From Candidatus Egerieimonas intestinavium (GTDB lineage Bacteria; Bacillota; Clostridia; Lachnospirales; Lachnospiraceae): 64,000 nt of DNA. The stretch spans positions 1 to 64,000 of the forward strand of contig DVHU01000031.1 of NCBI GenBank assembly GCA_018711815.1. Reading direction: 5' to 3'. Positions 4,637-40,315 of the stretch are shown piece after piece (positions within the stretch are counted from its first letter, which is position 1; every line of letters starts with the position of its first letter). Below the pieces are notes generated by a model that saw only the letters and a program-made list of their open reading frames with translations, was not told the origin of the DNA and did no database searches. A program made the translations under genes and the position numbers.

Positions 4637-4717
4637 AAGTTTTAGCAGGAATAGCCTGCATACCCGACGGCTTTTACAGCGAAAAGGCCGAAGGGAAAGA
4701 TAAAAATTTCATCATCG

Positions 4718-4808
4718 AGACCGGGGAGCTGACCGTCAGTCGGCTGAGAGGAAGCTAAGTCGCTTCGACCCGCAACCTGATTTGGATAATGCCAACGTAG
4801 GGAGTGAT
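4718..4808 (+). ncRNA. TPP riboswitch (THI element)
   Basis: The two conserved TPP-binding parts are present: GGGGAGCTGACCG...CGGCTGAGAGG (pyrimidine-sensing side) and ACCTGATTTGGATAATGCCA followed by ACGTAGGGAG (pyrophosphate-sensing side). Known TPP riboswitches lower expression of thiamine genes when TPP is plentiful. It is followed directly by a terminator and then by thiW-thiM-thiE-thiD-thiC, which supports this role. Confidence 0.95.
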
Positions 4809-4818
4809 ACCGAACCAT

Positions 4819-4859
4819 AAGTGAGAGATATCCTGGCATATTTCTCACTTTTTCTTTTC
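4819..4859 (+). terminator. Riboswitch expression-platform terminator
   Basis: AAGTGAGA-ATA pairs with TAT-TCTCACTT (4819-4830 with 4839-4850), followed by TTTTTCTTTT. Its position right after the aptamer marks it as the TPP-controlled attenuator. Confidence 0.85.
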
Positions 4860-4887: not shown

Positions 4888-4923
4888 GGGCTGTCGCATT
4901 GGCTGATGCGACAGCCCTTTTTT
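4888..4923 (+). terminator. Second terminator in the thiW leader
   Basis: A perfect 12-bp stem, GGGCTGTCGCAT with ATGCGACAGCCC (4888-4899 / 4906-4917), followed by TTTTTTG. It lies between the riboswitch attenuator and thiW and is not obviously controlled by the aptamer. Confidence 0.8.
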
Positions 4924-24087: not shown

Positions 24088-24945
24088 ATGGAAAATAAGA
24101 CAGCAATCGCAATGACACAGCTTGTAGGTTTCAAGGAGTATCTGCTGGAAAGGGAGAACGCCCCGGCTACCCTGGAAAAGTATCTGCGGGATGTGCGGAA
24201 GTTTTTTGCCTTTGCCGGGGAGGGAAGCGAGATAACAAAAGAAAAGCTTCTCATCTATAAGGAACGGCTCATGGAAGGCTACTCGGTCAGCAGTGTGAAT
24301 TCTATGCTGGTGGCCCTGAATCAATTCCTGGGTTATATGGGGCTGGGGCGCCTGCGGCTGAAGCGGGTGCGGGTGCAGCGGATAGATTTGGAGCACGCCC
24401 AGAAAGCCCTGGGTAAGGAGGAATTTCGCCGGTTGGTGCGGACAGCCCGGGACTGTGGTAAGGAGCAGCTGGCCATGATCATGGAAACCATGTGCGCTAC
24501 GGGAATTCGGGTCAGCGAGCTGAAATATTTTCGGGTGGAAAACCTGCGCAGCGGTATTGTCAAGGTGTGGAATAAAGGAAAGTACCGGATGGTAATTCTG
24601 CCGGCGCTGCTGAAAAATAAACTGCTTCTATATATAAGAAGAAACGGGATCAAGAGCGGTATGATTTTCTGCACCAGGTCCGGCCGGGAGAAGGACCGCT
24701 CCAATATCTGGCGGGAAATGAAGGCGGTGGCAAAGTGCGCAGGCATCGGCGGAAGAAAGGTATTTCCCCACAATCTGCGGCATCTCTTTGCCCGATCCTT
24801 TTACGCAAAAACCAAGAATCTGATTACTCTGGCGGATATACTGGGCCACAGCAGCCTGGAGGTTACCCGCATCTATGCCTCTGACGGTATTGAAAAATGG
24901 AGGAGGGAAATAGAACAGATCGGTTTGCTGGAAGGGACAACATAA
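24088..24945 (+). CDS. Tyrosine recombinase, candidate DNA invertase
   Basis: 285-aa phage-integrase/Xer-type recombinase. The N-terminal SAM-like core-binding domain (about 10-90) is followed by the catalytic domain with all key residues visible: R141 (TGIRVSEL), H228-x-x-R231 (HNLRH), H254 (LGHSS) and the nucleophile Y263 (TRIYA). AAAGGAGAAA precedes the ATG. Its stop TAA lies in the outer arm of an inverted recombination site, and the matching site is 240 bases further on, just upstream of a giant surface-protein gene. The context suggests it flips the promoter between the sites. It could alternatively be a remnant of an integrated element, but no element genes are seen. Confidence 0.9.
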   Translation: MENKTAIAMTQLVGFKEYLLERENAPATLEKYLRDVRKFFAFAGEGSEITKEKLLIYKERLMEGYSVSSVNSMLVALNQFLGYMGLGRLRLKRVRVQRIDLEHAQKALGKEEFRRLVRTARDCGKEQLAMIMETMCATGIRVSELKYFRVENLRSGIVKVWNKGKYRMVILPALLKNKLLLYIRRNGIKSGMIFCTRSGREKDRSNIWREMKAVAKCAGIGGRKVFPHNLRHLFARSFYAKTKNLITLADILGHSSLEVTRIYASDGIEKWRREIEQIGLLEGTT

Positions 24946-24962
24946 CATTAATTATGTTGTAG
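24937..24962 (+). repeat. Left inverted recombination site (IRL)
   Basis: Arms ACAACATAA (24937-24945) and TTATGTTGT (24952-24960) are perfect complements around the 6-base spacer CATTAA (24946-24951), the layout of a tyrosine-recombinase core site. The 19 bases AACATTAATTATGTTGTAG (24944-24962) recur inverted at 25179-25197. Confidence 0.88.
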
Positions 24963-25003
24963 TTTACATATGATGTTAAGCAGAAATGAATCTAGTATTA
25001 ATT

Positions 25004-25032
25004 ATTTTAGTCCGTCTCCCAGGGCTTGTCAA
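25004..25032 (-). promoter_or_regulatory. Strong SigA-type promoter inside the invertible segment
   Basis: On the minus strand: TTGACA (25027-25032), 17-base spacer, TAAAAT (25004-25009), one mismatch to consensus. In this orientation it transcribes leftward, antisense to the end of the recombinase gene. Confidence 0.8.
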
Positions 25033-25115
25033 TAGCTATAACTTACATAAATCTAAGGAAATGGAAATATTTTCCACCTGTCAAAAATGCTAATTAGTCC
25101 TTGTCCAGAAAGGGT

Positions 25116-25140
25116 ACCTTCTGATAAGGTCTTTTTTCTT
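25116..25140 (+). terminator. Weak terminator inside the invertible segment
   Basis: ACCTT-CTGAT-AAGGT hairpin (5 bp), then CTTTTTTCTT. The stem is short; it may limit read-through from the recombinase gene in this orientation. Confidence 0.4.
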
Positions 25141-25178
25141 ATTTCTTTCCTATCAAAATCCCCTCACAACTTTTCCCC

Positions 25179-25204
25179 CTACAACATAATTAATGTTCTG
25201 TTAT
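25179..25204 (-). repeat. Right inverted recombination site (IRR)
   Basis: The arm CTACAACATAA (25179-25189) and spacer TTAATG (25190-25195) are the exact reverse complement of the left site's inner arm and spacer. The outer arm TTCTGTTAT (25196-25204) matches the ideal TTATGTTGT at 7 of 9 positions. Identical spacers in opposite orientation predict inversion, not excision. Confidence 0.88.
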
Positions 25205-25218
25205 GAAAATCCGGGGCC

Positions 25219-25252
25219 CCAGGTGGGCAGCCTCTGCGGAGGTCTACCCTGG
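25219..25252 (+). other. Possible leader hairpin before the giant surface-protein gene
   Basis: CCAGG pairs with CCTGG, with an inner stem around a TGCG loop and some wobble pairs; no T-run. It would be in the 5' leader when the promoter is ON. The rest of 25198-25352 shows no convincing promoter of its own. Confidence 0.3.
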
Positions 25253-25352
25253 AGGCCGGCGGGACAGGCGGACATGCAGAATTATGATTCTTTAACATAA
25301 AACAGGGAAATCCGCACAGAGGAAAAGTATGCGGAGGAAAGGAAGAGGGGAA

Positions 25353-28300
25353 ATGAAAAACAGCAGCACCAAAATTACAGAAAGGAAAAAGCGCAGGAAG
25401 CTTCTCTCAGCGGTGGCGGCTCTGGCTCTGGCCTTGTCCATGATGGCTGGGATTTTACCCGGCGGTCAGGTGAGAGCCCAGGCCCAGGAGAACACCTCCG
25501 GTGGGGCGGAAAGCCTGACGGAGGCCGAGGCCCAGGAGCAGCTGCAGAAGCTGAGAGAAGGCCTGGGGAGCATCTTCGGGGGAGCAGAGACGTACGCGGC
25601 CCTCGATGAGACCGTCACCACAGACGGATCTACCATTAACGGCTGGACTGGCTATCTGCAGAACAGCACCCAGAACGTGGGAAGAATCTGGACGGACAAG
25701 ACTGTCCAGAGCACGGGGATTACCCTGACGGGAGGAACTTCCCAGGGAATTACCGTTGACAAGGATACGGACGCAGATTTCCTGGTGGGCTTGTCCGCCC
25801 TGTCCTCCACGTCCAACCTGACTACGGTGTCGGACAAGCCGTTGGACATCGTGCTGGTTTTGGATCGGTCCGGGTCTATGGGAGATAATTTTAGCTATGT
25901 ATATTCTGAGGTATATGAAGACGAGCTCAGCACTTCTTGGTGGGCTCCTACATATTATGCCCTGGTGAACGGTTCCTACGTCCAAATTCAAAGGAACGGG
26001 AATCAGTGGAGATTAAATGGTGAGCGAGTCTATCCCAAGAGAAATGCCAATGATGATGGGGCTGGGCGTATCCAGTTTTACGAGAGAAGCGGTCAGACAA
26101 AAATGGCGGCCCTTCGATCTGCGGTTGGCGCGTTTATCGACAGCACAGTGACGGCAAATGAAGGGATCACCGCCGAAGAAAACAAGCATCGGGTGTCCAT
26201 AGTATCTTTTTCAACCAATGCTAATCAGGCGATTGGCTGGACAGTGTGCGACAGCAGCAATGCGCAGACATTGAAGAATACGGTGAATGGGCTGAATGCA
26301 AATGGCGCTACCCGGGCGGATTATGGAATGAGCGAAGCTGAGGATGCCTTAGACAGCAGCAGGGAAAATGCCCAGAAAGTGGTGATTTTCTTTACCGATG
26401 GAGTGCCCACCAGTGGGAATTCCTTTGAGAGCAGAGTCGCCAATGCGGCCATCAGCAGCGCTAAAAATATGAAGGATGAGGGCGCGTTAATCTATTCCAT
26501 CGGTATCTTCGCCGGGGCAGACGCCGCGGATACTACCACCAACACCAATGCCTATATGCACGGGGTGTCCAGCAACTATCCCGAGGCAAGCACCTATACG
26601 AATTTAGGGGACCGGGCGGAGGACAGCGACTACTACAAGGTGGCCGCAGACGCGGATGAGCTAAGCGCCATTTTTGAAGAGATTGCAGGGGATATACAGG
26701 ATATAGCAGCCGGATCCCCCACCCAGGTACAGGAAGGAATGGAAGACCGTGACGGCTATATCACCTTCACGGACCGGCTGGGTGATTACATGGAGGTGCC
26801 CGAGGGCAGCGCCATGACGGTGGTCTACGCCAATCAGTCCTTTACTGCCAGCTACAATGAGGGGCAATGGTCATTTTCCGGCACAGTGGAGGGCAACGAT
26901 ATATACGGGGCGGCCGATCTGTCCAACCTTCTGGTTACGGTGACGAAGGGGCAGGGAAGCAGCGGAGATACCATAACTGTTCAGGTTCCCGCCTCCCTGA
27001 TCCCCCTGAGAAATTACAAGGTGGATACGGAAAATGATTCCACCGCCATGGAGGTGAAGGCGGCTTACCCCATCCGTATCTTCTACAACGTGGCCCTGAG
27101 GGAGAGCGCCCGGGAAAGCCTGGGCAATCCCGATGAGACTCTGCAGAACTATATCGGCAGCAACAGCCAGGAGGGAAAGGTGTCCTTCTACTCCAACTAC
27201 TGGAGCGGGACAAACCAGAATCGCGGAGACACCACCGCCTCCTTCACCCCCTCCACAGGAAATACCTTCTATTACTTCACGGCGGACACACCGCTGTATA
27301 CGGATGAAGCATGTACCCAGCAGGCCACATGGGCAGACCGGGGAGATCAGCTCTACTACAAGCACACCTACTACGAGCAGGATGCGGCAGGAGCAGGGGT
27401 AGAAAAATCGGAGGGCGTTGCCCTCAGCGGTCAGGAGACCGTGCAGACGGATTGGCAGAGCGGAAATCTTTACGTTGCCAAAGGGACTCCCCGCTACACC
27501 CGCATCGGCGACTTCTACACCGCCAAGGATGGTAATGCCACAGGCACGGCGGCTGACGTGGTAAATCCCCAGTGGAGCGGAACCAATATTCAGGTGGCCC
27601 TGGGAAATAACGGAAAGCTGGAAGTGGAGCTTCCGGGCGCCTTGGCCGTGACTAAGGAGGTGACGGCAGCCGAGGGCTTCGACGAGGCCGACTACGCCGA
27701 TGAGGAATTTGATTTCACCATCCAGGTGGCAGGAGCTGCGGGCGAATACCAGGCGGCCCTGGAGAACGCCCAGGGAGAGATGGGGGAGAGCTTTGCCCTT
27801 ACCTTTACCGGGGGGCAGGCTACCTGCCAGCTGAAGGCGGGAGAGACCTTATATATCTACGGGCTCGATGGAGGCGCCGCATACACCGTCACAGAGGCGG
27901 AGAAATCCGGCTACACCCAGAGCGCTGAAGGGGAAACAGGAACCATCGCAGCCGGAGAGGTGGCGGAAGCCGTGTTTACCAACGCGTATGCGGCTGAGCC
28001 TGTCACCGGTCGGGGAGCAGAGATCTTCAAGGGCGCTAAGGTGCTGGAAGGCAGAGATTGGATGGATAAGGATGCGTTTACCTTCCGTCTCACCAGCCAG
28101 GAAGGCACGCCCATGCCCGAGAGTGCTTCAGTCACCCTCTCCGGAGATCAGGATGGTGCAAAGGCCGGAGAGCAGATCGACTTTAACTTTGGCGATGTGG
28201 AGTACACGAAACCCGGCACTTACACCTACACCATCACCGAGGCACAGCCCGCTCAAGGCTTGGCGGGAATGAGCTACTCCGGGGCATCCTACGAGGTTAC

Positions 28301-31300
28301 GGTGACCGTCACCGACCAGAAGGATGGCACCATGGAAGTGACCTCCTCCATGAGAAAATTGACCGACGATCAGGGAGGCTCCATTCAGGGAGGAACCCCG
28401 GTGGAGGATAAGACCGCGGTATTTACCAATGATTTTGACGAGGCCTCCACGGAAGTCAGCCTGTCAGCGGGAAAGAGCTATACCGATACCACGGGCCAGA
28501 AGCCCATTGCTGACGGCATGTTCCAGATTCAGCTGAAACCCACGGGCGCCAACGGAGCGGAGGCTCCCATGCCCCAGGGAACCACGGGGACGGGAGCAAA
28601 CCGGGTCTACACTGCCGGCAACGCCGGAACTGTCTTCACTGTCGGTGATATCACCTTTGACAATACCATGGACGGCGACACCTATACCTATGAAATAACG
28701 GAAGTCAACACCGGCATCAACGGTATGGTATACAGCGGCGCTAAATACACGGTGGAAATCACCGTCAGCGTGAACGGCGATAACGAAGTCCAGGCAGCCG
28801 TGGCCTATAAGGATCAGCAGGGACAGGGAATTGCCGCAGATCAGGCGGTATTTGCCAACACCTACGATCCGGCGGACGCGGTACTGGAGGGAGAGCAGAC
28901 CGTCCAGGGCAGCAAGACGCTCACGGGCCGGGACATGAAGGAGGGTGAGACCTACGAGTTTACCCTGGAGGCCTATGACCAGGCGGCCAAAGCAGGCGTT
29001 GCGAATGGAAGCATCCTTCTGGAGAATAATCAGGCCCAGGTATCCGGCGGACGAAAGAACGCGGCGGTGGATTTCTCCTTCGGCAAGATGACCTTTACCA
29101 AACCGGGCACCTTTGTCTTCAGCGTCCGGGAGACCGGACATAACGGCAGTCCTCTGCCCGCCGACGGAACAGAGGGAATGACCTATGACCGGAAAAATCA
29201 CACGGTTACCATCACCGTTACGGACAACGGCGGAACCCTCAGCGCAGCCATCACCGGCTACAGCGACGGGGATAAGGCTCAGCTGGTGAACGATTATGAG
29301 GCGTCCCTGGACTACGGCGCCGAGGGCGGCATCCAGGTGGGCAAGACCCTGAACGGGCGGATGATGAATCCCAATGAGTTCACCTTCACCATCTCCGGCA
29401 ATGACGAGGCTTCCAGGGAGAAGCTGAGGGCGGCGGGGGAAAACGGTGAGTTTAAAAATACCCTGCAGCGGGGCGACGGCGTGGAGGAAGTTATGCATAT
29501 CCTGCAGAAACTCACCTTCACGGAGGCCGATGCGGATCAGACCTACAGCTTTACCCTGGCCGAGAGGCAGGATACAATTCCCGGTGTGACCAATGATCCT
29601 AACCAGTACACGGTTACCATCGCCGTGCGCGACAACGGCGACGGTACGCTGGATGCGGTGACTAAGGTTTGGCAGGGAGAGACTGAGCTGGCGTCGGCGG
29701 ATACTGCCGCGGGAGATTACGCGCCGGTGAAGGTGTCCTTTGTGAATAACTACAAGGCCCAGAGCGTATCCGTGGGCGTAAATGACGGACTGAGAGGAAC
29801 CAAGACTCTCTGGGGCCGAGACTCCCTGGAAAATGAGACCTTTGACTTTACCCTGGAGCCCACCGGGGATACCGTCCAGGCGGTGGCCGACGGAAAAGTG
29901 ACTATGGGCGATACCGCGGCCAGCGTCGCAAATCTGACGGAGGGCGAGGCGGAGACCTTTGGCTTTGGGAATATCACCATAAACCAGGCAGGCACCTATA
30001 CCTTCCAGGTGAAGGAGGTTCTGCCGGAGGGCGTAACGGCCGATAGTCCGGTGAAGAATGGCGTTACCTACGACACGGGGACAGCCGCCTACACGATTTT
30101 CGTAAGGGACAATACGGTCACCGGCAGGCTCGAGGCCACAGTGACCGCCATAAATGAAAACTTTGAAAATACTTACGAGGCCACACCGGTGACCTACGGC
30201 GACGGCAGCGCCCTGCTGGGAGGCCATAAATACATTGACGACAACTCCGGCTCCTATCAGTTAGCCGACGGACAGTTTACCTTTATCATGCGCGGTCAGA
30301 GCTCTCAGGCGCCCATGCCGGAGGGACTGCCGGTGATTGAGGATGAAGAGGGCCGGCCAGTGGTGACGGTGCAGAATACGCAGACCCAGAACAACCAGGG
30401 TATCTATGATTTCGGCACCATTACCTTTACCGAGGCAGGTACATACCAGTACAATATTTTTGAGGGTGATTCCATGCCTGCGGGTATCACCAAGGATAAT
30501 TCCACCTACACGGTTACCTTTGTGGTGACCGAGGATTTGACCACGGGAACCCTCAGCGTGACTCCCTCGGCGGTGAAGATCATGCCGGGAGCCCAGGACA
30601 ACGTGCCGGTAAATATGGATCAGCTGGATTTCACCAACATCTATAATGCGGATGAGGTGTCTGGCTATCAGAATATCTTCAAGACCCTGTCCGGCCGCGA
30701 TTTCCAGGCAGGAGATACCTTCACCTTCGACGTTTCCATGACAGCCACCCAGGAGGACGGAAGCCCCATGGAGGCTGCGGATCTTCCCGCGGTTGACGGC
30801 GCCGCCGCCGGAGGCCAGCTGTCTGAGGTGAAAACCAACGCAGCCGGGGACGGCTTTGACTACAGCGTAACCATCACGCCTCAGAGCCAGACAGGAAATA
30901 CGTACCGGTTCAATACCGGAAAGATCACCTACACCCATACGGGTACCTATGTTTACAAGGTATCTGAGCGGGAGTCGGCGGCAGCCAATGTGGCCAGCGA
31001 CCAGAGAGAATATACGGTGACCGTAGAAATCAGTCTGGAGGGCAATGCCTTAAAGCGCACAGTCACTGTGACGCCCCAGCTGTCGGTGGAAGGCACCATG
31101 GACTTCGTCAACGTGTATGAGCCGGGAGCGGTGGAGCTGGAGGGCGAAGACCTGATTGACGTACAGAAAACCATGACCGGCCGGGAGTGGCTGGAGGGAG
31201 ATTCCTTCCAGTTTGAGCTCACAGCCATAACCGCGAATGCCCCCCTGCCCCAGGACAACCTGGTGACCATTGAGAATCAGGGCGGAACGGCCGCGGGAAC

Positions 31301-34300
31301 GGCGGTCCGGGAGACCTTTGGCGCCATTACCTTTACCAAGGCGGATCTGGGCGTTGACAGCAGCGGAAAACCGCTGATGCAGAAGGATTTTGTCTACCAG
31401 ATCGCGGAGCTGGGAGCAACCATCGACGGAGTAACCTGCGATGATCACCAGGCACGGGTGACGGTGACCGTCAAGGATAACGGCGACGGTACCATGTCTG
31501 TTGAGCAGGTGGTCTATGACAACAGCCGTGCCCTCACAGATGAGGACAGGGCGGTGACAGACGCGGCGGCATTCACCAACAGCTACGCAGCGAAGCCCGC
31601 GGAGCTTTCCGGAGCGCAGGCTCTGGGCCTGGAGAAGAAGGTCACCGGCCATTACACGGACAATGACTTCCACTTTACCCTGAGGCTCACCGGCGGAGAT
31701 GCCTCCGGCGTGCTGAAGGGAACGGGCGATAATACGGCCGCCTTCGACCAGCTGACTGCGGAGATTGCCGAGAACTTTGAGGACGGCGACACCAAGGCAG
31801 CCAAGCTCGGAGAGCTCACCTTCACTAAGGCAGGCACCTATACCTTCCAGGTGACGGAGGATGAGGCCGCCGGCAGCGCGCCCGCGGGCTGGACCTACGA
31901 CGGCGAGGCCAAGACCATCACGGTAACCGTGACGGATAAGGGCTACGACGGACAGCTGGATGTGCAGGCGGAGGGAAATAATCCGCTCTTCACCAACGCG
32001 TACAGCGCCGTGGAAGTAGAGCTGAAGGGCGAAGAGGCCCTGCAGGTGCAAAAGACCCTGACCGGCCGGGAGGACGGACAGTGGACAGCCAACGATAACT
32101 TTACCTTCACCCTGACCGGTGAGGAAAACGCGCCCATGCCGGCTGACGCCCAGGGAAATACAAAGACCATCAGCCTGTCCGCGGATGACGCGGCGGAGGG
32201 TGTGGCCATCGGAAACTTTGGAAATATCACGTACGGCATGGGAAGCCGGGACAAGACCTATGAGTACACCATCACGGAGGAAGCGGGAAATGTCTACGGA
32301 ATGACCTACTCCCAGGCTAAGTATAAAGTAACGGTCCATGTGGCGGATAACCACGACGGAACCCTGGCAGTGACCGCTCAGATGACGAAGGTTCTGGCGG
32401 ACGACGGAAGCGCGGCTGCCGGAGCAGCGGAAGCAGCGGCATTTGCCAACACCTACCGGGTGCAGGAGGATACGAAGACCGTGGAAAAGACGGGGGCCGA
32501 CGGCGCTAAGACCGACGTAAACGGACAGCTGGTGGGCGTGGGAGACACCCTGACCTACACGGTACACTGGGTAAACAACGCGGTGGATGAGCACGGGGTT
32601 GCGGCTGCGGCCACGGTGACGGTAACCGACAAAATTCCGGCGGGCACAGCCCTGGTTCAGGGAAGCATCAGCGACGGCGGAGTGAATGAGGGCGGAACCA
32701 TCACCTGGGATCTGGGGCAGCAGGAGGCAGGAGCCCAGGGAGAGGTTTCCTTCCAGGTAACTGTCACAGAGGAAGCCGCGTCGGTGGATAAGGTCACCAA
32801 CACTGCCACTGTGCAGGTGGGCGGCAATGATCCCAAGACCACCAACCAGGTGACGGTGGATGTGCCCAAGAAGGAGGTAACCTCCGAGAGCGGTACCACC
32901 CAGGTGGGCGACAAGCTGACCTACACCATCGACTATGCCAACACGAAGAATCAGGCGGCGGACATCGTGATCACCGATAAGCTCCATGAAGGCTTGACCT
33001 ACAATGGGGACGCCAGCCACGGCGGAACCTACAATGAGGAGAGCCGCACCATTACCTGGGTGCTCTCCGGTGTGGAGCCCCAGACCTCAGGTACCGTGAC
33101 CTTTACCGCCACGGTCAATGAGAAGGCTCTGGGGGAGGCCCTGGACAACCAGGCGGTTATCCAGGTGGGCGACGACCCGGCCATCAAGACGACCACCGCC
33201 ACCACGGAGACCAAGACCGGGGATCTGACCATTTCCAAGGAGATCGTCCTCACGGAGGGCCAGGGAACCACCATCGACGAGACCAGAGAATTTACCTTTG
33301 CCGTTGAGCTGAAGGACAAAGGGGGCAATCCGCTGACTGAGAGCTACAGCTACCAGGGAGACACCCAGGGAACCATAGAGCACGGAACAGGGGAGATCAT
33401 CCTGAAGCACGGCCAGAAGATTACCATTCAGGGCCTGCCGGAGGGAGCTTCCTACAGGGTGACGGAGATAAATATCCCCGAGGGCTATACCCAGACGGCG
33501 CCTGTGGCAGAGGAAACTCAGGAGGATACAGAGGGCGCGAAGGCGGCAGCCGCGCCCGCCGCCGGAACGATCACGGCCGGCGGTCAGGCAGAGGCGGCAT
33601 TCGCCAACACCTACAATGCCCAGGCGTCCACGGACGTTCCCGCTGACTTCTCCTTCACCAAGGTGTTGGAGGGCAAAAAATGGGACGGCGATACCTTTAC
33701 CTTCCAGATTGAGGGAGTGAGCGGTACCGGAGCCGATGGCCAGGCCATCGAAGTTCCCATGCCGGCAGAGACCGTTAAGGAAGTGAGCGCTGCCGACGGC
33801 CAGGATGCCGACGGAAATGATACGGCCAAGTTTGACTTTGGCGCCATCACCTACACCCAGGCCGGCACCTATATCTATAAGGTGACGGAGATCCGGGGCG
33901 ACAATCCCGGTATAGATTACAGCGCCAACGAGGCTGCGGTGACCGTAATTGTCACCGACAAGACAGCCGAGGGCGTATCCACAGGCAAGTTTGCCGCTGC
34001 GGCTACTGTGGAGAACGGAACCTTTACTAATATTTACAGTACAGGTCAGGTGGGCTATGATGGGGCCGGCGGAATTCAGATTGTGAAGACCATGACCGGA
34101 CGCCGCATTGAGGCGGAGGAGTTTACCTTCACCATGACTGCCAAGGATGCGGCCTCCCAGGAGAAGCTGGGAGCGGCCAGCAAGACCTTTGCCACCAAGG
34201 GAGCCGCCCTGGAGGGCAACACAGCGACGGAGACCGTTGCGGCGGTTACGGGCCTGACCTTCACCAAGGAGGACGCGGGCAAGACGTACACCTACACGGT

Positions 34301-36707
34301 GGGTGAGACCAACGGAGGCCAGACCATAGACGGTGTGACCTACGACGGCAAGAGCTACACGGTGGAAATCAAGACGGCGGACAACAGCGACGGAACCCTC
34401 CGGGTGGACACCTACGTGGATGGGGAGCTGAGGGCTACCTACACCGCCACCCGGACAAGAGCGGCGGCAGTTCCGGTAACTCTGGAATTTGCCAACAGCT
34501 ATGACGCGGGAAGCGTAAGCTTAGGCGGCGACGGCGAGGCCAAGATCAGCGCCGCCAAGACCCTGACCAATTCCCAGCTGTCTGAGGGACAGTTTGCCTT
34601 CAAGGTATATAACGCCAAGGACAGCAGCAGGCAGCCTCTGGCCACCGGCACCAACAGTGCCGCGGGAAATATCGCCTTCGGCGCTATCCGGTACACCACC
34701 GAGAGCCTCAACAGCGATGTGGCCCAGGGCCTGGCTGTCCTGGATACCACCGGCGAGGCGGATGTCTACACCTACAGCTACATTGTGGCGGAGGATACCG
34801 CCGGATTAGCTGAGGAGGGAATCACAGCCATTGTGGACAGCTTCTCCATCACGGTGAAGATCACAGACAACCGGGCAGGAAAGCTCTCTGTGGAAGTAAT
34901 TTACCCGGAGGGAAGCAGCAGTCTGGCCTTTGAGAACGCTTACGGAAAGGGCCAGCAGGTAGATACTGTGTTAAAGGGAGGAAAGGTTCTGGATGTGGAG
35001 TCCGGCGACAATGCCCCCGATATCACAGGCAAGTTTACCTTCAGTATCACCGGTTCCCCGGGAGCGCCTATGCCGGAGAAAACGCAGGTTACCAATGATG
35101 CCGCGGAAAATGTGGACTTCGGCCGGGTGACCTACACCATGGAAAATGTATTCGGCGACGACGGCGCTGACGGGGATCAGGAAGAGACTGAGGATTTGGA
35201 GAATCCCGATGAGGAGTCCCAGGAGGGAGCTGAGCTCCCGGAGAACGCTCAGGATCAGATTTCCGGCGGAGCCTCCGCTGGAGAAGAGGCAGAAGGCGGG
35301 GCGGCTGCCGAAGAAGGAGCAGACGGCGGGGCAACCGCCGAAGGAGCTAACGGAGGAGCTTCCGCCGAAGAAGGCGCTGACGGAGGAGCAGCTGCCGAAG
35401 AAGGAGCTGACGGAGGAGCAGCTGTCGAAGAAGAGGCTGACGGCGGAGATGAGGTCGCCGGCGGCGCCCAGGGGGCGAATGATGCCGAGGCAGGAACTCC
35501 GGCGGCCCAGGGAGAGGAAAGCGGCGGCACAACTGTGCAGCTGATGGCCCTTAAGACCGGGGAGGCCAACGGAGTGGTTCTCCTGGATCAGGAGGCTGAG
35601 CCCCGGATGGAGAAACGCACTAAGACCTTCACGTATACGATCACAGAGTCCGGCTCTGTCCCCGGCGTGACCAATGACGCCGCGGTGAAGACGATTACCG
35701 TAACCGTGACGGACAACGGGGACGGAACGCTCTCCGTGGTCAAGACCGGCGACGCGGGCGCGGCGGACGGCATGGACTTTACCTTCACCAACACCTACCG
35801 GGTGACGCCCACTGATCCGGTGACGCCCACCGGAGACGGCGCTCTGACCATCAGGAAGGAGCTGGAGGGCCGCGCGCTGCGGGACGGCGAATTTAGCTTC
35901 CAGCTGAAGGATGCAAACGGAAACGTGGTGTCCTCAGGAAAGAACGCGGCCGACGGAACAGTGGCTCTCTCCGGCATATCCTTTGACAAGCCGGGAAGCT
36001 ATGAATACACCCTTTCTGAGGCTGCGGGAGAGTTGGGAGGAGTGACCTACGATCAGGGCGCTTATCAGGTGACAGCCATGGTCGCGGACAACGGAGACGG
36101 AACTCTCTCCGTGACCTGGACGGCTGCCGGAGCCCAGGGTCAGACAGAGGAGATCATTTTCCGCAATACCTATAAGCCTGCCGGCACCAGCGTAACTCTG
36201 GGGGCGGCTAAGGTGCTCAAAGGACGGGAACTGAAGGCCGGTGAATTTACCTTCCAGCTGAAGGATGAGGAGGGCAGGGTTCTGTCCCAGGCGACCAATG
36301 ACGAAAACGGTGCCATCGCCTTTGAGGCCCTGAGTTATCAGGAGGCGGGAACCTACACGTACACCATCACTGAGGTAAAGGGCCAGGACGAGACCATCAC
36401 TTACGACGAGACCGTTTATACGGTGACGGTGAACGTCGCCGACTCCGGAGACGGATATCTGACGGCAGCGGTGGATATGGGCGGACAGAAAATCGTATTT
36501 GCCAATACGTATACCAAACCGGCCGAGCCTGAGCCTGAGCCCACGGAACCGCCTCAGGAGGTGAAGCCCACAGAGCCCTCCCAGCCCACGGATACCGGCG
36601 CGGCCAATACGGGGGATTACACCCTGGTGCTTCCGGCGGCTCTGCTGCTGGCGGCAGCCCTGATGGGAATTATCCTCCTGCTGGTAATCCGCAGAAGGAG
36701 AGCTTAA
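25353..36707 (+). CDS. Giant VWA / pilin-isopeptide-repeat surface protein (~3,784 aa)
   Basis: Predicted cell-surface adhesin or pilus-like fibre. A basic N-terminus and signal peptide ending near AQAQ come first. Next is a von Willebrand A domain (about 165-455) with MIDAS motif D-R-S-G-S-M, interrupted just after the motif by an insert of about 60 residues. A Cna-B-like domain follows (about 765-885), then ten Spy0128/FctA-type modules (to about 2370), two DUF11 domains (about 2375-2620), another Cna-B-like domain, and six more FctA-type modules. FctA-type modules repeat the pattern K-x-L-x-G-R ... YxYxIxE ... FxNxY, fitting internal Lys-Asn isopeptide bonds with a catalytic Glu. An acidic Ala/Gly-rich insert sits near 3270-3400. 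The end has a Pro/Glu/Thr spacer, A-N-T-G-D, a membrane helix and RRRR. ATG 25353 follows AGAGGGG; ATG 25329 (8 residues longer) is possible. No sortase gene is in the window. Confidence 0.9.
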   Translation: MKNSSTKITERKKRRKLLSAVAALALALSMMAGILPGGQVRAQAQENTSGGAESLTEAEAQEQLQKLREGLGSIFGGAETYAALDETVTTDGSTINGWTGYLQNSTQNVGRIWTDKTVQSTGITLTGGTSQGITVDKDTDADFLVGLSALSSTSNLTTVSDKPLDIVLVLDRSGSMGDNFSYVYSEVYEDELSTSWWAPTYYALVNGSYVQIQRNGNQWRLNGERVYPKRNANDDGAGRIQFYERSGQTKMAALRSAVGAFIDSTVTANEGITAEENKHRVSIVSFSTNANQAIGWTVCDSSNAQTLKNTVNGLNANGATRADYGMSEAEDALDSSRENAQKVVIFFTDGVPTSGNSFESRVANAAISSAKNMKDEGALIYSIGIFAGADAADTTTNTNAYMHGVSSNYPEASTYTNLGDRAEDSDYYKVAADADELSAIFEEIAGDIQDIAAGSPTQVQEGMEDRDGYITFTDRLGDYMEVPEGSAMTVVYANQSFTASYNEGQWSFSGTVEGNDIYGAADLSNLLVTVTKGQGSSGDTITVQVPASLIPLRNYKVDTENDSTAMEVKAAYPIRIFYNVALRESARESLGNPDETLQNYIGSNSQEGKVSFYSNYWSGTNQNRGDTTASFTPSTGNTFYYFTADTPLYTDEACTQQATWADRGDQLYYKHTYYEQDAAGAGVEKSEGVALSGQETVQTDWQSGNLYVAKGTPRYTRIGDFYTAKDGNATGTAADVVNPQWSGTNIQVALGNNGKLEVELPGALAVTKEVTAAEGFDEADYADEEFDFTIQVAGAAGEYQAALENAQGEMGESFALTFTGGQATCQLKAGETLYIYGLDGGAAYTVTEAEKSGYTQSAEGETGTIAAGEVAEAVFTNAYAAEPVTGRGAEIFKGAKVLEGRDWMDKDAFTFRLTSQEGTPMPESASVTLSGDQDGAKAGEQIDFNFGDVEYTKPGTYTYTITEAQPAQGLAGMSYSGASYEVTVTVTDQKDGTMEVTSSMRKLTDDQGGSIQGGTPVEDKTAVFTNDFDEASTEVSLSAGKSYTDTTGQKPIADGMFQIQLKPTGANGAEAPMPQGTTGTGANRVYTAGNAGTVFTVGDITFDNTMDGDTYTYEITEVNTGINGMVYSGAKYTVEITVSVNGDNEVQAAVAYKDQQGQGIAADQAVFANTYDPADAVLEGEQTVQGSKTLTGRDMKEGETYEFTLEAYDQAAKAGVANGSILLENNQAQVSGGRKNAAVDFSFGKMTFTKPGTFVFSVRETGHNGSPLPADGTEGMTYDRKNHTVTITVTDNGGTLSAAITGYSDGDKAQLVNDYEASLDYGAEGGIQVGKTLNGRMMNPNEFTFTISGNDEASREKLRAAGENGEFKNTLQRGDGVEEVMHILQKLTFTEADADQTYSFTLAERQDTIPGVTNDPNQYTVTIAVRDNGDGTLDAVTKVWQGETELASADTAAGDYAPVKVSFVNNYKAQSVSVGVNDGLRGTKTLWGRDSLENETFDFTLEPTGDTVQAVADGKVTMGDTAASVANLTEGEAETFGFGNITINQAGTYTFQVKEVLPEGVTADSPVKNGVTYDTGTAAYTIFVRDNTVTGRLEATVTAINENFENTYEATPVTYGDGSALLGGHKYIDDNSGSYQLADGQFTFIMRGQSSQAPMPEGLPVIEDEEGRPVVTVQNTQTQNNQGIYDFGTITFTEAGTYQYNIFEGDSMPAGITKDNSTYTVTFVVTEDLTTGTLSVTPSAVKIMPGAQDNVPVNMDQLDFTNIYNADEVSGYQNIFKTLSGRDFQAGDTFTFDVSMTATQEDGSPMEAADLPAVDGAAAGGQLSEVKTNAAGDGFDYSVTITPQSQTGNTYRFNTGKITYTHTGTYVYKVSERESAAANVASDQREYTVTVEISLEGNALKRTVTVTPQLSVEGTMDFVNVYEPGAVELEGEDLIDVQKTMTGREWLEGDSFQFELTAITANAPLPQDNLVTIENQGGTAAGTAVRETFGAITFTKADLGVDSSGKPLMQKDFVYQIAELGATIDGVTCDDHQARVTVTVKDNGDGTMSVEQVVYDNSRALTDEDRAVTDAAAFTNSYAAKPAELSGAQALGLEKKVTGHYTDNDFHFTLRLTGGDASGVLKGTGDNTAAFDQLTAEIAENFEDGDTKAAKLGELTFTKAGTYTFQVTEDEAAGSAPAGWTYDGEAKTITVTVTDKGYDGQLDVQAEGNNPLFTNAYSAVEVELKGEEALQVQKTLTGREDGQWTANDNFTFTLTGEENAPMPADAQGNTKTISLSADDAAEGVAIGNFGNITYGMGSRDKTYEYTITEEAGNVYGMTYSQAKYKVTVHVADNHDGTLAVTAQMTKVLADDGSAAAGAAEAAAFANTYRVQEDTKTVEKTGADGAKTDVNGQLVGVGDTLTYTVHWVNNAVDEHGVAAAATVTVTDKIPAGTALVQGSISDGGVNEGGTITWDLGQQEAGAQGEVSFQVTVTEEAASVDKVTNTATVQVGGNDPKTTNQVTVDVPKKEVTSESGTTQVGDKLTYTIDYANTKNQAADIVITDKLHEGLTYNGDASHGGTYNEESRTITWVLSGVEPQTSGTVTFTATVNEKALGEALDNQAVIQVGDDPAIKTTTATTETKTGDLTISKEIVLTEGQGTTIDETREFTFAVELKDKGGNPLTESYSYQGDTQGTIEHGTGEIILKHGQKITIQGLPEGASYRVTEINIPEGYTQTAPVAEETQEDTEGAKAAAAPAAGTITAGGQAEAAFANTYNAQASTDVPADFSFTKVLEGKKWDGDTFTFQIEGVSGTGADGQAIEVPMPAETVKEVSAADGQDADGNDTAKFDFGAITYTQAGTYIYKVTEIRGDNPGIDYSANEAAVTVIVTDKTAEGVSTGKFAAAATVENGTFTNIYSTGQVGYDGAGGIQIVKTMTGRRIEAEEFTFTMTAKDAASQEKLGAASKTFATKGAALEGNTATETVAAVTGLTFTKEDAGKTYTYTVGETNGGQTIDGVTYDGKSYTVEIKTADNSDGTLRVDTYVDGELRATYTATRTRAAAVPVTLEFANSYDAGSVSLGGDGEAKISAAKTLTNSQLSEGQFAFKVYNAKDSSRQPLATGTNSAAGNIAFGAIRYTTESLNSDVAQGLAVLDTTGEADVYTYSYIVAEDTAGLAEEGITAIVDSFSITVKITDNRAGKLSVEVIYPEGSSSLAFENAYGKGQQVDTVLKGGKVLDVESGDNAPDITGKFTFSITGSPGAPMPEKTQVTNDAAENVDFGRVTYTMENVFGDDGADGDQEETEDLENPDEESQEGAELPENAQDQISGGASAGEEAEGGAAAEEGADGGATAEGANGGASAEEGADGGAAAEEGADGGAAVEEEADGGDEVAGGAQGANDAEAGTPAAQGEESGGTTVQLMALKTGEANGVVLLDQEAEPRMEKRTKTFTYTITESGSVPGVTNDAAVKTITVTVTDNGDGTLSVVKTGDAGAADGMDFTFTNTYRVTPTDPVTPTGDGALTIRKELEGRALRDGEFSFQLKDANGNVVSSGKNAADGTVALSGISFDKPGSYEYTLSEAAGELGGVTYDQGAYQVTAMVADNGDGTLSVTWTAAGAQGQTEEIIFRNTYKPAGTSVTLGAAKVLKGRELKAGEFTFQLKDEEGRVLSQATNDENGAIAFEALSYQEAGTYTYTITEVKGQDETITYDETVYTVTVNVADSGDGYLTAAVDMGGQKIVFANTYTKPAEPEPEPTEPPQEVKPTEPSQPTDTGAANTGDYTLVLPAALLLAAALMGIILLLVIRRRRA
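35270..35460 (+). repeat. ~30-bp degenerate in-frame repeats in the giant gene
   Basis: Five to six units encode variants of E-E-G-A-D-G-G-A-A-A. They lie in an acidic low-complexity insert inside one isopeptide module and could change length by slippage without breaking frame. Confidence 0.75.
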
Positions 36708-40174: not shown

Positions 40175-40195
40175 AATCCTCGGATTTACTTCCAT

Positions 40196-40268
<73 letters not shown>

Positions 40269-40315
40269 TTTTTTTATTGCTTAGAAACTTTATAGATGCA
40301 GAGGCGTAGGCTTTT

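Follow-up and report, generated by a model that had tools for sequence, protein, structure and literature searches.

The window analysed here, a stretch of 64,000 nt from Candidatus Egerieimonas intestinavium (contig DVHU01000031.1), carries a tyrosine recombinase gene followed directly by a short segment between inverted repeats and then by a very large gene for a surface protein. The features of this locus, in the order of the forward strand, are as follows.

24088..24945, + strand: open reading frame for a XerA/XerD-like tyrosine recombinase of 285 aa, the proposed invertase (from domains and catalytic motifs)
24939..24962, + strand: left site AACATAA-CATTAA-TTATGTTGTAG, overlapping the recombinase stop codon (pairs with the right site as an inverted repeat at 23/24 bases; family site ACATAA-N6-TTATGT)
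24946..24951, + strand: spacer CATTAA, the presumed crossover region
24963..25178, no strand: segment between the arms, proposed to be invertible (216 bp; ~244 bp between the crossover points)
25032..25004, − strand: predicted sigma-A type promoter TTGACA-17-TAAAAT, facing the recombinase (OFF), in line with a position rule in relatives
25096..25137, + strand: hairpin resembling an intrinsic terminator (25096-25132) plus six consecutive T (25132-25137), folding at −13.7 kcal/mol (z −2.3)
25179..25202, − strand: right site AACAGAA-CATTAA-TTATGTTGTAG, read on the − strand (inverted repeat with the left site)
25329..36707, + strand: giant surface protein gene, 3792 aa, with VWA, 16 FctA (Spy0128 isopeptide), DUF11 and DUF7601 domains

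The earlier note had described the recombinase gene as complete, and the protein indeed contains both expected domains in a profile search (Pfam Phage_integrase, 4.9e-21, and a SAM-like N-terminal domain). By alignment to solved XerD/XerA, the catalytic residues were located at R (TGIRVSEL 138), K (KGKYRMV 163), HxxR (HNLRH 228) and H...Y (LGHSSLEVTRIY 252). Among the NCBIfam models XerA and XerD gave the best matches, which would suit an integrase or a Xer housekeeping enzyme, with the repeat being a chance occurrence or an unrelated regulatory palindrome. However, the scores of 131 bits for XerA (cut-off 220) and 102 bits for XerD (cut-off 330) fall far short of the cut-offs, so that the protein does not reach the level of a XerC/XerD housekeeping equivalog. 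Moreover, the surroundings of the locus show no sign of an integrated element, relatives of the recombinase have little presence in phages or plasmids, and in 84 of 90 related loci the recombinase gene is followed by these same repeat arms. We therefore consider an integrase or housekeeping role very improbable. An origin as a phage or plasmid module was likewise rejected, with a single viral contig encoding a 45% identical recombinase and no plasmid matches; in phage records, identity was at most ~36% among the matches listed.

The two sites agree in 23 of 24 bases (24939-24962 versus 25179-25202), the one mismatch lying in the right outer half-site (AGAA), where it might lower activity. The perfect 19-bp inverted repeats reported previously were recovered exactly at 24944-24962 and 25179-25197, and the same 6-bp spacer is present at both sites in opposite orientation, the right copy reading TTAATG at 25190-25195. 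The recombinase reading frame ends inside the left site, its stop codon TAA (24943-24945) belonging to the outer half-site and adjoining the spacer. As noted before, this stop codon would be unaltered by inversion, provided that the crossover falls inside the spacer. In the 2.88-Mb assembly, no second site pair was found: the left site was the only exact match and one-mismatch matches stayed at the level of the control. The same genome thus yielded neither a further copy nor sites acting in trans beyond chance level, and both ideas were rejected.

Within the segment there is only one strong promoter, the near-consensus element on the minus strand, which points away from the giant gene as had been claimed and is located 46 bp from the core of the left site. 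When the segment was dinucleotide-shuffled 2000 times, ~0.05% of the shuffles reached its score. When the inversion was rebuilt in silico, this promoter came to lie at 25109-25137 and pointed towards the giant gene, at the coordinates predicted beforehand, 192 bp before the ATG at 25329 and 216 bp before the ATG at 25353. The second of these, which follows GAGGGGAA, may be the better start of the gene.

The terminator-like hairpin, absent from the earlier note and from the output of a generic terminator scan, was found by folding. In the OFF orientation it would stop plus-strand read-through into the giant gene. The OFF-facing promoter could also give antisense transcripts of the recombinase gene. 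Past the right site and ahead of the giant gene, another, GC-rich hairpin occurs at 25207-25260 on the plus strand (−27 kcal/mol, no T-run). Transcripts made in the ON state would carry it in their 5′ leader, and its stability is not clearly above that of shuffled sequences (z −1).

The presence of the terminator-like hairpin on the plus strand of the segment in its current orientation, and a recombinase gene that runs directly into the segment, would also fit a switch in which the segment inverts but control is exerted mainly by the terminator, with transcription from an outside promoter, for instance recombinase read-through, being halted by the hairpin in the OFF state. Such a mechanism is known from cwpV of C. 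difficile, where the promoter lies outside the invertible segment and a terminator provides the control (PMC2784873). Hairpins were found in the segments of several relatives too, but in many relatives terminators either point both ways or are missing. At the window locus, in contrast to cwpV, the only strong promoter lies inside the segment, and its position is conserved across relatives. Control mainly by the terminator is therefore improbable in our view, and we favor inversion of the promoter itself.

The predicted product of the downstream gene contains 16 FctA stretches above the gathering score (E 7e-287). Read by eye, its N-terminus resembles a signal peptide and its C-terminus (AANTGDYTLV...RRRRA) comprises a membrane helix, a basic tail and the variant sortase-like motif NTGD, whereas a canonical LPXTG motif was not seen in the C-terminus and there was no Pfam anchor match. 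One sortase is encoded in the genome, at a location elsewhere, and the window contains no linked sortase or pilin operon. From its domain content, the giant protein would be an adhesin. As to RNA elements, the Rfam search gave no riboswitch at the switch locus; elsewhere in the window, there are a TPP riboswitch (RF00059, 59 bits) at 4712-4820 (+), upstream of genes starting near 4906, and a tRNA-Phe (GAA) gene at 40195-40269 (+).

Taken together, these features suggest the following mechanism. The recombinase would bind the two sites with their ACATAA/TTATGT arms, and strand exchange inside the identical 6-bp spacers would invert the segment between them. In the OFF state, as sequenced, the sole strong promoter points back over the 3′ end of the recombinase gene and the terminator would face the giant gene. 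In the ON state, the promoter at its new position would drive the giant gene, from which the terminator would now point away. A presumable side effect is antisense transcription over the recombinase in the OFF state, whereas the ON state would remove the terminator of the recombinase gene.

Of 397 genomes sampled from the same family, 101 carried relatives of the recombinase, and 79 named loci came from other Clostridia. Judged by its closest named relatives, the source species would belong to the Lachnospiraceae. Ninety related loci had at least 500 nt of downstream sequence, and in 84 of these an inverted site pair was located directly 3′ of the recombinase gene. The family site can be written as ACATAA-N6-TTATGT and is often longer (TACAACATAA-N6-TTATGTTGTA); in the open literature we found no papers naming this site in Lachnospiraceae. 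For all 78 pairs defined by their arms alone, the spacer was identical (inverted) in both copies. Between loci the spacers vary, with 65 kinds in 84 distinct segments and not one of them palindromic. Constant arms combined with identical, asymmetric spacers are what a tyrosine recombinase needs for binding and strand exchange. The pattern with one extended arm was present in 59 of the 397 family genomes, while a reversed control pattern was rare.

A promoter of at least 11 bits occurred in 49 of the 84 segments compared with 4% of shuffles, with one dominant promoter per segment. The distance from the end of the −10 element to the site it faces had a median of 45 bp, in the ON as well as in the OFF set. 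With regard to orientation, the promoter faced the gene in 12 segments (ON) and the recombinase in 49 (OFF), and 23 were ambiguous. Placed on the recombinase tree, orientation changed 11 times versus a mean of 11.1 for shuffled labels, a scatter that would follow from orientation switching more rapidly than species diverge.

Several loci depart from the simple arrangement. At L027 (G259), L085 and G253:C33/C96, the recombinase is followed by three sites or by two in direct orientation that share one spacer, an arrangement that could permit deletion besides inversion. At L062 and L095, the left site is perfect and the right partner is absent; these are possibly locked or decayed switches.

Two comparisons provide evidence for flipping among the relatives. 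The first involves L040 and L041, from closely related Blautia MAGs that have the downstream gene in common. Identity is 93% in the left flanks and 72% in the right flanks, while for the segment between it is 60% in direct alignment and 84% once one copy is flipped. The second comes from the isolate Blautia sp. An249, in which contigs C15 (recombinase side) and C2 (gene side) share a terminal 215 bp in the same sense, consisting of site, segment and site. On C15 the promoter faces the recombinase (OFF), and on C2 it faces the gene for a 2638-aa surface protein (ON), beyond which a pilin gene and then a sortase-like gene are found. An intact molecule in a single orientation cannot give both contig ends in the same sense; therefore, both orientations were present in the An249 culture. 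The earlier note had proposed looking in related genomes for the same site pair in both orientations, and had named a single orientation throughout deep read sets and related strains as one of the observations that would speak against it; together with the ON and OFF counts given above, these cases show both orientations among the relatives.

In Lachnoclostridium sp. An131 and in G400, contig breaks coincide exactly with the boundary of the repeat, and contig ends within 450 nt of the recombinase were found 15 times downstream and 4 times upstream (p 0.019). This is the pattern expected where assemblers meet two orientations, and other causes can produce it as well. The contig pairs C52/C127 and C119/C132 of G404 were rejected as a signal of both orientations, being paralogues or simple overlaps. 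L005/L167 is the nearest relative whose target gene is of the same kind, with a recombinase 64% identical to that of the window and a VWA protein that aligns to the giant protein with up to 60% identity over 237 aa. There, a promoter with the same hexamers as in the window faces the gene (ON).

Only one orientation was seen in the window genome, a single MAG, and this, along with the mismatch in the right outer half-site, would be compatible with a frozen remnant, in which sites and recombinase persist but recombination has been lost in this lineage. Yet the catalytic residues are intact, the arms match perfectly over 19 bp and the spacers throughout, and relatives with similar single mismatches, L040 and L041 among them, differ in orientation. 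We thus judge a frozen remnant to be unlikely. The recombinase-linked invertible promoter in the OFF orientation, as originally proposed, gains strong support from the paired sites in 84 of 90 loci, the stereotyped promoter position, the flip between L040 and L041 and the junctions of An249. We consider it very likely that the window locus is a phase-variation switch in which the recombinase inverts the segment through crossover in the spacer, and which is now OFF for the giant gene. Judged from sequence, the locus would invert, this recombinase would act on these sites, and expression would follow orientation.

The targets in the relatives are VWA, SpaA, collagen-like and other large surface proteins as well as sortase pilus operons, and further include SPFH-domain proteins, DUF4352 lipoproteins, a CpsB/CapC protein, an Rrf2 regulator and others. 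SPFH/Band 7 zinc-ribbon proteins are encoded downstream at L068, L081, L083, L090, L099 and L107 (Oscillospiraceae and other Clostridia). A small repeat protein with zinc-binding-like DLTGRRFGRLTV...CDCG motifs occurs downstream at L034, L039, L040, L041, L044 and L050 and constitutes a recurring non-adhesin target.

A wider interpretation, which we put forward tentatively and with some doubt, is a pan-Clostridia family of promoter switches, each with a co-encoded recombinase, near-invariant ACATAA...TTATGT arms and a locus-specific 6-bp spacer as its address, such that several switches per cell would flip independently and control genes for adhesins, pili, SPFH-domain proteins, lipoproteins, signal peptidase-like proteins, capsule and regulators. 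The idea that spacers are strictly kept distinct within one genome was not supported, as ~5 of 67 within-genome locus pairs share one, three of these pairs being in one genome, compared with ~0.7% between genomes (hand tally; spacer counts). Such sharing arises because paralogues share descent, and the independence of the switches is therefore something that we infer. One example is provided by L037 and L044 of Claveliimonas monacensis DSM 108991, which both have the spacer CATTAA, the same as in the window; recombination between these two loci is conceivable. These data raise the question whether a spacer by itself suffices to keep the switches of one cell independent.

The sequence rule of constant arms, a locus-specific spacer and a promoter ~45 bp from the site finds many on/off switches from assemblies alone, in gut Clostridia that are poorly tractable. 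Many of these switches control giant adhesins and sortase pili, which probably decide attachment to mucus and host.

Among known systems, the fim switch of E. coli (FimB/FimE) resembles the window locus in its promoter segment of a few hundred bp, its inverted repeats, its adjacent tyrosine recombinases and its target, a surface adhesin operon; there, too, the 3′ end of a recombinase gene abuts the switch, and the likeness is one of architecture. Unlike the window locus, fim has two recombinases with biased direction, plus accessory proteins. A comparable effect of orientation on the recombinase transcript is discussed for the fim switch (PMC2784873). The RecV switches of C. difficile (cwpV, flgB) likewise combine a clostridial XerC/D-like tyrosine recombinase, a segment of ~200 bp and a giant or surface protein target, but their recombinase acts in trans from elsewhere. 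The target of the window switch shares VWA and FctA/TIGR03786 domains with the Spy0128/FctA isopeptide pilins and VWA adhesins of Gram-positive bacteria, and differs from them in having 16 FctA repeats in one chain of 3792 aa with neither a sortase nor a pilin operon linked to it within the window.

SZO08560 of Streptococcus zooepidemicus is controlled by an invertible promoter with the adjacent recombinase SZO08550, and reads were found in both orientations (PMC2654543). As in the window, a Gram-positive host carries a promoter between short inverted repeats by a recombinase gene, upstream of a large surface protein, which is of the LPXTG type in SZO08560; in contrast, its repeats are GTAGACTTTA/TAAAGTCTAC, the protein has 1160 aa with Listeria-Bacteroides repeats, and site, host class and adhesin type differ (PMC2654543). 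In the hCom2 inverton study, inverton group 139 (invertase group 35) comprises 33 invertons, 32 of them from Clostridia and nearly all near a tyrosine recombinase; its example coordinates give a 25-bp repeat with ~206 bp between, and shifts of orientation in culture were measured from reads (PMC11892184). The family of the window switch is probably this group, with which it agrees in architecture and host class. The proposed switch described here belongs to the already known kind of invertible promoters such as fim and SZO08560.
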